Positions 28,432-31,649 of a DNA stretch of 42,159 bases are shown here, piece by piece (the stretch's first letter is position 1; the number at the start of each line of letters is the position of its first letter). This stretch comes from Acidobacteriota bacterium. Its GTDB lineage: Bacteria > Acidobacteriota > Vicinamibacteria > Vicinamibacterales > SCN-69-37. The notes under the pieces are model-generated. The model saw only the letters and a program-made list of their open reading frames with translations, made no database searches and was not told the DNA's origin. The position numbers were made by a program, and so were the translations under genes. The stretch covers positions 1 to 42,159 of the forward strand of contig JABMNV010000007.1 of assembly GCA_013203475.1 (NCBI GenBank), given 5' to 3'.

Positions 28432-28704
28432 ATGGCTTTCATCGGTTGGATCGTCCGGATCCTGGCGGTCCTGATTCTGGTTCGAATGGTGCTGCGGCTG
28501 TTTTCGGGCGGCGGCACACGCCGGGCGACCGCTCGGTCAACTCGGGCGCCAGCCACGCGCGAAGGTGGGCGCTTGGTGCGTGATCCGCACTGCGGCACGT
28601 ACGTGCCGGTCACAAAGGCTCTGCGGTCCGGCAATGGCGACTCGGCGGTCTACTTCTGCTCTGACGCGTGTCGAACAGCCTGGGCTACCCGCAAGGCTGG
28701 GTAG
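28432..28704 (+). CDS. Small membrane protein with paired-cysteine (PP0621/YHS-like) domain
   Basis: A 90-residue protein with an N-terminal membrane helix (FIGWIVRILAVLILVRMVLRLF), a basic linker, and a C-terminal metal-site-like module. The module contains LVRDPHCGTYVPVTKAL and YFCSDACRTAW; Cys54-type and CxxxC residues could hold zinc. This matches the PP0621-like family of uncharacterised proteins. Its TAG stop shares a base with a possible GTG start of the aldolase gene. Role unknown. Confidence 0.75.
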   Translation: MAFIGWIVRILAVLILVRMVLRLFSGGGTRRATARSTRAPATREGGRLVRDPHCGTYVPVTKALRSGNGDSAVYFCSDACRTAWATRKAG

Positions 28705-28712
28705 TGCTGCCG

Positions 28713-29585
28713 ATGCCAGACACAGAAACCCAGCTCCGGCTCGATATTGTTGAAGTGGGGCGACGCCTGTGGACACGGGGATTCGTCGCCTCCAACGATG
28801 GGAATATCAGCGTTCGGCTCCCGGGTGATCGATTGCTGATGACGCCGACAAGTGTCTCAAAGGGATTCATGGACCCTGAGATGATGGTGGTGACTGACAT
28901 GGACGGCCAACTGCTGTCCGGCGCGCCGGGGAGAAAGGCCTCCTCAGAAATCCTGATGCACCTGGTCGCGTACCGGCACAGGCCTGATGTGCACGCGGTG
29001 GTACACGCGCACCCGCCGCTGTCCACCGGCTTTGCGGTGGCAGGCATTCCGTTGGACCGCGCCGTACTCGCCGAGGTGGTGACCACTCTGGGGAGCATTC
29101 CTATTGCGGAGTACGGCACGCCCTCAACGCCGGAACTGGCCAAGGCCGTCGAACCGTATGTGAAAGTGCACGACGGCCTGCTGCTGGCCAACCACGGGGC
29201 GCTGGCGCTCGGCAAAGACCTGTTCGCGGCGTACTACAAGATGGAAACCATTGAGCACTTTGCCCGAATCAGTCTGGTGGCGCGCCTGCTGGGGCGCGAA
29301 CACGTGCTGTCGCGGGACGAGGTGGGCCGGTTGCAGGAGTTGCGCGGCACGTACGGCATCGCCTCGCCGGCACCCGTGTGCGTCGATCCAGAGCCCGAAC
29401 GCGCCGCCACATGCCAGGTCGTGGTGGCGCCCGCCTCGGCCGGGAACCGGCTCGTTCTGGACAGGGTCGAGGGGGGGCGGAGCGCCCCAATAGGTATCAG
29501 TGGCGAGATTCAGTTAACATACGGCGAGTTGACGGCTTTGATTGACGGAGCTGTCAAACACCTCACGGCCCGTACCACGGCGTGA
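28713..29585 (+). CDS. BMC-associated class II aldolase/epimerase with C-terminal helix tail
   Basis: A class II (zinc) aldolase of the fuculose/rhamnulose-phosphate type, which would split a sugar phosphate into dihydroxyacetone phosphate and an aldehyde. Phosphate and metal residues are visible: [11 protein letters not shown], the SSE Glu, VHAHPP and ANHGAL. The core ends near residue 215 ([10 protein letters not shown]). A Pro-rich linker and a last helix ([17 protein letters not shown]) form an extension typical of encapsulation peptides that guide enzymes into microcompartments. BMC shell genes follow 29 nt later, supporting an encapsulated role. The start may be ATG 28713 or GTG 28704. 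The substrate is not determined. Confidence 0.88.
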
Positions 29586-29614: not shown

Positions 29615-29899
29615 ATGGGCGAAGCGCTCGGAATGGTCGAGACGAAGGGGCTGGTTGCCATGATTGAGGCAGCCGACGCGATGGTCAAGGCCGCAAAGGT
29701 AACGTTGGTCGGCTGGGAAAAGATCGGCGCCGGGTACGTGACGGCGATCGTGCGCGGGGACGTAGCGGCCGTGAAAGCGGCCACCGATGCCGGTGCCGCG
29801 GCCGCTCGTCGGGTGGGCGAATTGGTGTCGGTGCATGTGATCCCGCGCCCCCACGTTGACCTCGAGGGCGTGCTGCCCATCGGCAAAGCGTCGAAGTAG
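29615..29899 (+). CDS. BMC-H hexameric microcompartment shell protein
   Basis: A 94-residue single-BMC-domain protein of the PduA/EutM/CcmK type. It forms hexameric tiles of the shell facets. It begins [20 protein letters not shown], has the central pore loop KIGAG at 36-40, and continues [23 protein letters not shown] and VHVIPRPH. The C-terminus is short. A strong GGGAGGA ribosome binding site precedes ATG 29615, as expected for the major shell protein. It is the only BMC-H gene in the window. Confidence 0.96.
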
Positions 29900-29908
29900 G
29901 CGGGCGAG

Positions 29909-30211
29909 ATGATTCTCGCCAAGGTCGTCGGCACCGTCGTCGCGACCCGCAAAGATGAGCGGCTCGTTGCCAGCAAGTTGTTGGTGGCGCGGCCGCTCGA
30001 TCCGTCTGGAATCCCCGGCGGCAACTACCTGGTCGCCGTCGACACGATGGATGCTGGCGTGGGCGACACCGTGCTGATTGTCTCCGGCAGTTCGGCCCGA
30101 ATGGCCCAGGGGTACAAAGACTGCCCGATCGATGCTGCCATCATCGGGATCGTCGATCAGGTTGACACGCCTGGAGACACGCCCGGCGCATCGCCGGGAG
30201 CCGGGAGTTAG
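29909..30211 (+). CDS. BMC-P pentameric vertex protein (EutN/CcmL family), copy 1
   Basis: A 100-residue EutN/CcmL protein. Pentamers cap the vertices of the icosahedral shell. Typical features are AKVVGTVVATRKDERLVASKLLVARP, the loop before YLVAVDTMDAGVGDTVLIVSG and the ending DAAIIGIVDQVD. It has a Pro/Gly tail (DTPGDTPGASPGAGS) not shared by the next two copies. It starts 9 nt after the BMC-H gene. Confidence 0.95.
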   Translation: MILAKVVGTVVATRKDERLVASKLLVARPLDPSGIPGGNYLVAVDTMDAGVGDTVLIVSGSSARMAQGYKDCPIDAAIIGIVDQVDTPGDTPGASPGAGS

Positions 30212-30213
30212 AC

Positions 30214-30480
30214 GTGGTACTCGCTCGCGTCATCGGCACCGTCGTGGCGACGATGAAGGATGTTAATCTTCACGGGCGCAAGTTGCTCCTGTTGCAACCG
30301 ATTGCGACTGATCGGTCAGCGACTGGGCGCGCCGTTGTGGCCCTTGACGCCGTCGGCGCCGGGGTGGGCGAGCATGTGTTTTTTGTGCGAGGTCGAGAGG
30401 CTTCGTTTCCATTCCTCCCGGATGAGCCACCCACAGACTGCTGCGTCGTGGGCATCGTCGACCGGTGGGATCTCGAGTAA
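30214..30480 (+). CDS. BMC-P pentameric vertex protein (EutN/CcmL family), copy 2
   Basis: An 88-residue EutN/CcmL protein with GTG start, 2 nt after copy 1. It shows ARVIGTVVATMKDVNLHGRKLLLLQP, VVALDAVGAGVGEHVFFVRG and CCVVGIVDRWDLE. The loop before the final strand (FPFLPDEPPTDCC) differs from the other copies, including a Cys pair. This suggests a distinct vertex surface. Confidence 0.94.
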   Translation: MVLARVIGTVVATMKDVNLHGRKLLLLQPIATDRSATGRAVVALDAVGAGVGEHVFFVRGREASFPFLPDEPPTDCCVVGIVDRWDLE

Positions 30481-30484
30481 GCCG

Positions 30485-30769
30485 GTGCAAATCGCTCACG
30501 TGATCGGCACCGTCGTCTCCACCCAGAAGCATCAGAACATCGAAGGGGCGAAGCTGTTGCTGGTGCAACCGCTGACGCTTGACGGTGCCAGCAAGGGCGT
30601 CGCGGTGCTGGCGATCGATTCGGTCGGGGCGGGGATCGGCGAGACTGTGCTGGTCGTCATCGAGGGCAAGGCCGCCGGCGATGCGCTGCGGCGAAAAGCC
30701 GCTCCGGTGGATGCCGCCATTATCGGAATCATTGACGCGATAACGGTGGACTCGACGCGAGAACAATGA
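30485..30769 (+). CDS. BMC-P pentameric vertex protein (EutN/CcmL family), copy 3
   Basis: A 94-residue EutN/CcmL protein with GTG start at 30485, 4 nt after copy 2. The frame is open further upstream inside copy 2, but the family start is QIAHVIGTVVSTQKHQNIEG. It continues with AKLLLVQPLTLDG, VLAIDSVGAGIGETVLVVIEG and DAAIIGIIDAITVD. Three BMC-P genes beside a class II aldolase recall the PVM-type loci of Planctomycetes, described for fucose/rhamnose use. Confidence 0.94.
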   Translation: MQIAHVIGTVVSTQKHQNIEGAKLLLVQPLTLDGASKGVAVLAIDSVGAGIGETVLVVIEGKAAGDALRRKAAPVDAAIIGIIDAITVDSTREQ

Positions 30770-30770
30770 C

Positions 30771-30974
30771 GTGGAATCAGTAAACGACCAGGAACTGCGC
30801 CTGCTCGTCCGGGCGGCCGTGGCGCGACATCTGGGTATTGATGTGCCCGCTCCGCCTGCGAATGATGCAGGTCAGATGCTCTATACAGGTCTCGTGAACG
30901 TTACCGACGCCTGTGTCATCGAGCCCGCCGTCCCCTGTGATCACTGCGGCTATTGCAAGAGCCACGGGTATTGA
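30771..30974 (+). CDS. Tiny BMC-linked four-cysteine protein with N-terminal targeting-like helix
   Basis: A 67-residue protein that starts with GTG one base after the third BMC-P stop. Residues 6-22 (DQELRLLVRAAVARHLG) form an amphipathic helix very like encapsulation peptides, followed by a Pro-rich linker (VPAPPAND). The rest carries four cysteines and a histidine: Cys48, Cys56, Cys59, Cys62, His65 (C-x7-C-x2-C-x2-C-x2-H), suited to an iron-sulfur cluster or zinc. I do not recognise a named family. A cargo protein of the microcompartment, perhaps redox-active, is an inference from helix, cysteines and position. nth follows 3 nt later. Confidence 0.75.
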   Translation: MESVNDQELRLLVRAAVARHLGIDVPAPPANDAGQMLYTGLVNVTDACVIEPAVPCDHCGYCKSHGY

Positions 30975-30977
30975 CGA

Positions 30978-31649
30978 TTGCCCGGGTCTTCCAACATTGT
31001 TCCCGTCCTGAAGGCCGTGGGAAGGTCCATTCGGTCGATGGAAGAGCCGGCGGTGGAAAAGATTTCCGAGGCGACCCAGGACGATCCGTTTCAGGTGCTG
31101 ATTGCCACGCTGTTGTCGGCGCAGACGAAAGATGCCGTCACCGCGGCGGCGTCTGAGCGGTTATTCAAGGTCGCGCGCACGCCAAAGACGCTGGCGGCGG
31201 TGACGGTGGGGCGGATCGAGCGGCTGATTTATCCCGTCAGTTTCTATCGGAACAAGGCACGTCATGTGAAACAGGCGTGCCGCCAGATTCTCGATGACTT
31301 TGGTGGCAACGTGCCGGACACCATGGAAGAGTTGTTGACGCTGGCAGGAGTAGGGCGCAAGACGGCCAACCTCGTCCTGATCCTGTCGCATGCGAGTCGG
31401 GACAATATCTGTGTGGATACACACGTGCACCGGATCTCGAATCGACTTGGCTGGGTGCGGACCAAGACACCCGAGCAAACTGAGCGCGCGTTGTACGAAG
31501 TGGTGCCACGCAAGTGGTGGCCTGATGTGAACTTGTATCTGGTGACGTGGGGACAGAACGTCTGCAAACCGGTGTACCCGAGGTGTCGCGCGTGCGTCGT
31601 GTCGTCGTTGTGTCCTCGTCTCGGTGTAACCAAGGAGGGACGGGCATGA
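30978..31649 (+). CDS. nth: Endonuclease III (Nth-type DNA glycosylase/AP lyase)
   Basis: Removes oxidised pyrimidines from DNA. The helix-hairpin-helix LAGVGRKTANLVL contains the catalytic Lys, VDTHVHR contains the catalytic Asp, and the C-terminal 4Fe-4S loop is C-x6-C-x2-C-x5-C (CKPVYPRCRACVVSSLC). The frame begins at TTG 30978; GTG 31017 or ATG 31038 are alternatives that shorten a poorly conserved N-terminus. It sits 3 nt after the microcompartment cluster, so it is probably on the same transcript, although no functional link is evident. Its stop overlaps the cyclophilin start. Confidence 0.93.
   Translation: MPGSSNIVPVLKAVGRSIRSMEEPAVEKISEATQDDPFQVLIATLLSAQTKDAVTAAASERLFKVARTPKTLAAVTVGRIERLIYPVSFYRNKARHVKQACRQILDDFGGNVPDTMEELLTLAGVGRKTANLVLILSHASRDNICVDTHVHRISNRLGWVRTKTPEQTERALYEVVPRKWWPDVNLYLVTWGQNVCKPVYPRCRACVVSSLCPRLGVTKEGRA

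Follow-up and report, generated by a model that had tools for sequence, protein, structure and literature searches.

A 67-residue protein whose gene immediately follows the shell genes of an ACI-type microcompartment (BMC) may be a stripped-down, PduM-like adaptor between enzyme core and shell, that is, an encapsulated accessory protein with a metal-binding tail. We put the probability of this reading at about 0.45. The protein is the product of a real gene and belongs to a family specific to microcompartments; packaging, metal binding, adaptor function and descent by domain loss are what we infer for it. The uncharacterised ACI microcompartment comes from a phylum common in soil. The family is among the most constant ACI parts after the shell, and it would offer a 67-residue handle on the joining of core and shell.

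The gene, its locus and its distribution

The window, by which we mean the whole stretch of 42,159 nucleotides that was analysed, carries the 67-residue ORF MESVNDQELRLLVRAAVARHLGIDVPAPPANDAGQMLYTGLVNVTDACVIEPAVPCDHCGYCKSHGY on the forward strand. Its start codon is GTG, and a single base separates it from the TGA (30767–30769) of the third BMC-P gene. The sequence-only reading had placed it one base behind the last shell gene, and this position was verified together with the coordinates. The features of the locus and of the protein are as follows.

28668–29585, forward strand: class II aldolase with a C-terminal encapsulation peptide (EP) (PF00596, E 2.4e-49; the EP is named for ACI loci in the text of PMC8217296)
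29615–29899, forward strand: BMC-H shell gene (PF00936, E 3.6e-30; the ORF is listed from 29582, with the ATG at 29615 as the probable start)
29909–30211, forward strand: first BMC-P shell gene (PF03319, E 1.3e-30)
30214–30480, forward strand: second BMC-P shell gene (profile match; PF03319 occurs three times in the genome)
30485–30769, forward strand: third BMC-P (EutN/CcmL) shell gene (PF03319), ending one base 5' of the 67-residue ORF
30771–30974, forward strand: 67-residue protein with N-terminal helix, Pro-rich linker and C-terminal Cys module (ORF call, homologs, profile)
30786–30833, forward strand: EP-like N-terminal helix, residues 6–21, DQELRLLVRAAVARHL (AlphaFold2 helix; profile match to the aldolase EP)
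30834–30911, forward strand: flexible Pro-rich linker and pre-module segment, residues 22–47 (pLDDT below 50 at 25–34)
30912–30971, forward strand: C-terminal module C48-x2-E51-x4-C56-x2-C59-x2-C62-x3-G66-Y67 (conservation in 85 sequences)
30978–31649, forward strand: endonuclease III-like gene (nth), the conserved right border, outside the BMC (PF00730; synteny)

Homologs were found in 32 of 40 related genomes. When 12 close members were compared over their last 20 codons, third codon positions accounted for 549 of the 974 pairwise nucleotide differences, and 412 of 678 codon differences were synonymous. Because of this conservation and the excess of third-position substitutions, the ORF is a real gene, and a chance ORF was ruled out.

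The locus is an ACI-type microcompartment. For this type, the text of Sutter et al. (2021, PMC8217296) gives an aldolase with a C-terminal EP, a hydroxyacid dehydrogenase, a BMC-P triplet, a BMC-H and a satellite aldehyde dehydrogenase. The EP-tailed class II aldolase, the BMC-H and the BMC-P triplet lie in one cluster of the window, and a satellite BMC-H followed by an aldehyde dehydrogenase was found elsewhere in the same genome (G000:C235, locus L125). The 2-hydroxyacid dehydrogenase is present in relatives (L052, G021) but is missing in the window from its place before nth. Within the taxonomic order of the window the genes run glmM-pdxJ-aldolase-BMC-H-BMC-P x3-67-residue gene-(2-hydroxyacid dehydrogenase)-nth, with a TPR protein between pdxJ and the aldolase in both loci checked.

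As a separate observation, the interval 30974–30978, between the 67-residue ORF and nth, holds no 2-hydroxyacid dehydrogenase gene, although this is its usual ACI place. Judged by spacing, the gene is likewise missing before nth in the remaining loci fetched from the window's genus.

A profile built from 12 members found the family in 53 of 396 Acidobacteriota genomes, and a 58-member profile found it in 86. PF03319 (BMC-P) genes were present in all 53 of the former (Fisher p = 1.5e-23) and in 85 of the latter (p = 6e-39), against a background of 164 of the 396 genomes; these p values are uncorrected for phylogeny. The sole genome with the family protein and without BMC-P (G165) is 67% complete, and its match falls at the edge of a contig. 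A BMC-P gene was visible in the stretch at 82 of the 85 loci retrieved, each time on the same strand and no more than 700 nt away (median distance 47 nt). Among the other three, L049 is truncated by a contig edge, and in L085 and L087 some 28 kb separate the family gene from the BMC-P genes of the same contig. The expectation that homologs always sit beside BMC genes thus held almost completely, and the family is specific to microcompartments.

Two genomes of the same order that have no BMC (G298 and G306) also lack the family protein. In another, G021 (locus L154), the ACI locus is otherwise complete, with aldolase, shell and 2-hydroxyacid dehydrogenase retained, but there is no Cys-tail protein and BMC-P is followed directly by the dehydrogenase. 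The protein is therefore not strictly required, and is an accessory rather than part of the core enzymes. In eight loci without a family match, no common substitute protein was seen among the genes 3' of BMC-P. A plasmid search with the 67-residue protein or with a long relative, L151, gave no match.

No family in Pfam or NCBIfam matched the 67-residue protein, and the literature found neither describes the family nor ties PduM to a flavoprotein fold. For ACI loci, the main text of PMC8217296 goes no further than 'several proteins of unknown function'; its supplement may include the family among unnamed accessory models.

Helix, linker and cysteine module

The AlphaFold2 model of the protein was built on 58 sequences and reached an overall pLDDT of 73 and a pTM of 0.35. 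It contains a single helix at residues 6–21, close to the amphipathic helix proposed earlier at 6–22. The helix itself stood, but its amphipathicity was not supported by the hydrophobic moment: the value of 0.175 is ordinary compared with shuffled sequences (p = 0.77), and across the family the moments were not above shuffles (median p 0.29–0.56).

The helix profile TDDELRALVRDAIARHL aligned with the profile of the aldolase EP, LTYRELTALIEDAVRQL, in one register. None of 5000 column permutations reached the score of this alignment, and p was 0.0014 when hydrophobic and polar columns were permuted separately; 40 N-terminal helices were compared with 40 aldolase C-terminal peptides, and the p values are approximate since the members are related. 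Most single aldolase/protein pairs also scored above shuffles, with p = 0.08 for the window's own pair. Since the aldolase tail is named an EP in the text of PMC8217296, this profile match is the best sequence evidence of shared targeting, and it favours the proposal that the helix is a targeting helix. Encapsulated cargo is recognised by a terminal helix of about 15–20 residues on a flexible linker, and the protein has such an arrangement, with the helix at 6–21 and predicted disorder (pLDDT below 50) at 25–34. The Pro-rich linker described earlier is present at residues 25–29. Most relatives carry an H-x-S motif in the linker or pre-module segment; the window copy is without it.

The C-terminal module is fairly confident in the model (mean pLDDT 88 at residues 51–60), and a fold search with the 67-residue model gave nothing usable. 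The motif C-x7-C-x2-C-x2-C-x2-H at residues 48–65 was read correctly from the window (C48, C56, C59, C62, H65), but its conservation was uneven. All 85 sequences keep C48, C56, C62 and G66, have an acidic residue at position 51 (E in 82, D in 3) and end one residue beyond G66. Position 59 holds cysteine in 74 sequences and serine in the remaining 11, so that three of the four supposedly conserved cysteines held and the fourth alternates with serine. A C-x2-C-x3-C variant occurs in three members (L091, L139, L141). H65 varies among homologs (H, Y, L, R and further residues), and a histidine ligand was ruled out on this ground. From the conservation in the 85 sequences, the invariant core consists of three Cys and an acidic residue, with the Cys/Ser position as the probable fourth. 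Zinc and Fe-S binding are indistinguishable from sequence.

Long relatives, a proposed PduM lineage and the probable role of the protein

In other classes the Cys tail closes proteins of about 130–240 residues. These long relatives consist of the helix, a degenerate flavoprotein-fold domain and the same Cys tail; the window form is without the middle domain. One of them, L151, matched TIGR02536 with E 7e-10 over residues 9–163, ahead of the Cys tail, and L137 (E 0.007) and L136 (E 0.03) matched part of the same region weakly, all long-relative scores lying below the curated cut-offs. The 67-residue form showed no match to PF15953, TIGR04493 or TIGR02536, and is tied to PduM and TIGR02536 through the long relatives, which have just the helix and the Cys tail in common with that form.

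The middle domain of the low-confidence L151 model (mean pLDDT 57, near 77 in the core) resembled flavoproteins of the UbiX/PPC-decarboxylase type. The best 25 rows of the fold search were all of this kind, at Z 5.6–7.4, and the next stood at 4.4; Z values below 8 are weak alone, and the fold call is backed by the coherence of the rows and by the sequence link. The stretch of the flavin-binding Asn motif, read by eye in the alignment, is altered in L151 and L149. In Fusobacteria, a 'flavoprotein' gene between phosphotransacylase and BMC-P (EutN) matched CoaBC (2e-8), TIGR02536 (1e-7) and PduM (2e-6). The pduM gene of E. coli occupies the same place, between phosphotransacylase and the BMC-P gene pduN.

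PduM (PF15953, TIGR04493) resembles the window protein in its N-terminal targeting helix, in its gene adjoining BMC-P and in being a small BMC-only protein. It differs in its middle domain and in ending with a 'TALARE' segment instead of a Cys tail, whereas the window protein has helix, linker and Cys tail only. TIGR02536 ('eut_hyp') and the BMC-linked flavoproteins (PF02441-like) are matched by the long Cys-tailed relatives, with their UbiX/CoaC-like fold, but members of TIGR02536 end in 'TPLARD' and the window form is without the shared domain. Thus PduM and TIGR02536 end in a 'TPLARE/TALARE' ('TPLARD') module where the long relatives have the Cys module. Genome searches with TIGR02536 and PF15953 mostly returned the separate 'TPLARD' module, not the family protein. 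Given the match of L151 to TIGR02536, the flavoprotein fold, the matches of the Fusobacterial gene and the placement of pduM, the three groups look like one lineage with exchangeable tails. This would give PduM a place among flavoprotein-fold proteins whose tails can be swapped. The short form would be the product of middle-domain loss; alternatively, it may have arisen by fusion of a helix to a mobile Cys module.

A core protein of low abundance, PduM bears a signal sequence at its N-terminus, and in its absence shell and core come partly apart (PMC12108088, PMC9132943). We propose an adaptor function for the window protein by analogy with this behaviour. The N-terminal helix would act as an encapsulation peptide and join the enzyme core, and the flexible linker would present the 20-residue C-terminal knuckle, which may bind one metal centre through the three invariant Cys and a fourth ligand. 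The protein would most likely be a reduced remnant of a PduM/TIGR02536-like adaptor (helix, flavoprotein-fold domain and tail) whose middle domain was lost. Most likely it would still serve as an adaptor, with the helix in the core and the metal-stiffened tail docked on the shell, the neighbouring BMC-P being the first candidate. Such a protein would also be a very short natural targeting-plus-metal module for shell engineering.

A wider form of the proposal is more tentative. The proteins may form an Acidobacteria-wide family for BMC assembly, made of minimal bipartite adaptors (encapsulation helix plus metal-bound knuckle) that descended from a PduM-like ancestor with a flavoprotein fold by a swap of the C-terminal module followed by loss of the middle domain. 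The metal site would then be a shell-core joint or a lumen sensor of metal or redox state.

Somewhat less probable again is the proposal of the sequence-only reading, a minimal encapsulated electron carrier, here taken as a [4Fe-4S] or [3Fe-4S] protein that would serve a luminal oxidoreductase or pass electrons to the shell. Fe-S clusters are commonly held by a C-x2-C-x2-C pattern together with a distal Cys. The window motif fits it, the sole replacement at C59 is serine, a known rare Fe-S ligand, and the flavoprotein fold of the long relatives means that the ancestor could have been a redox protein with flavin and an Fe-S cluster. The locus also shows no shell electron relay of the PduT type, its shell genes being only BMC-H and BMC-P. 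However, the oxidoreductases of the system (aldehyde dehydrogenase and 2-hydroxyacid dehydrogenase) are of the NAD type and need no such carrier, and the flavin-binding motif looks altered in L151 and L149. Unlike ferredoxin-type Fe-S proteins, the family does not keep four invariant Cys (Ser in 11 of 85), and the window protein matched no ferredoxin-type profile; Fe-S binding itself may still occur. In view of the Cys/Ser alternation, the variable His, the altered flavin motif of the long relatives and the kinship with PduM-type proteins, a structural adaptor is at least as likely as an electron carrier or metal-binding accessory protein.

It is unlikely that the module is a zinc knuckle of the kind seen in the structural-zinc lobe of MDR alcohol dehydrogenases (IEPGVPCGHCRYC), serving as a protein-docking module with no tie to PduM. 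The window protein does contain the local motif IEP-x2-PC-x2-C-x2-C, and each of the three weak matches of the motif pointed to that lobe (E 0.027 for L-idonate dehydrogenase, 0.099 for an alcohol dehydrogenase and 0.92 for xylitol dehydrogenase). Cys3Glu structural zinc exists in some enzymes of the medium-chain alcohol dehydrogenase type, with which the acidic position 51 (85 of 85) would agree. These E-values are nevertheless at or near chance level, and the window protein is free-standing. The cysteine order also differs, the lobe having C-x2-C-x2-C-x7-C and the window protein its fourth Cys ahead of CxxCxxC, not behind it. Because distant members (CQFEPDKPCDHCSMCNSRGF) lose the likeness, we treat it as convergent.

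Least probable is a protein that delivers metal or a cofactor, or acts as a regulatory thiol switch, with one of two enzymes in the shell as its client, the class II aldolase or the aldehyde dehydrogenase. Class II aldolases require a divalent metal, and the gene does cluster with such an aldolase that bears a similar targeting helix, but G021 has aldolase, shell and dehydrogenase without the family protein, and metal enzymes in other BMCs are not known to need a partner of this kind.

Other microcompartment-linked observations

The BMC aldehyde dehydrogenase of the satellite locus in the window's genome (L125:4088-5737) closes with a 'DVRQAMALGRTILISDRTIVTPLAREV' module that resembles the C-terminal ends of PduM and TIGR02536 proteins, so that this type of tail is common to different BMC proteins. 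A class II aldolase fused behind the same kind of module ('TPSARD') was seen near BMC-P genes in L177 (G197:C15).

At four loci (L126, L128, L131, L133) a second satellite BMC-H adjoins a gene resembling D-serine dehydratase/alanine racemase, and DUF1501 and DUF1800 genes are present at the second-satellite loci in several genomes.

Ribose-5-phosphate isomerase B (L228-L235; L179, L180, L184) begins, in members of the window's order, with an 'HVTPLA' module of the kind just described for the aldehyde dehydrogenase tail, and in other classes it has an encapsulation-like N-terminal helix as well. The enzyme is a candidate for encapsulation, hinting at pentose phosphates as the ACI substrate.
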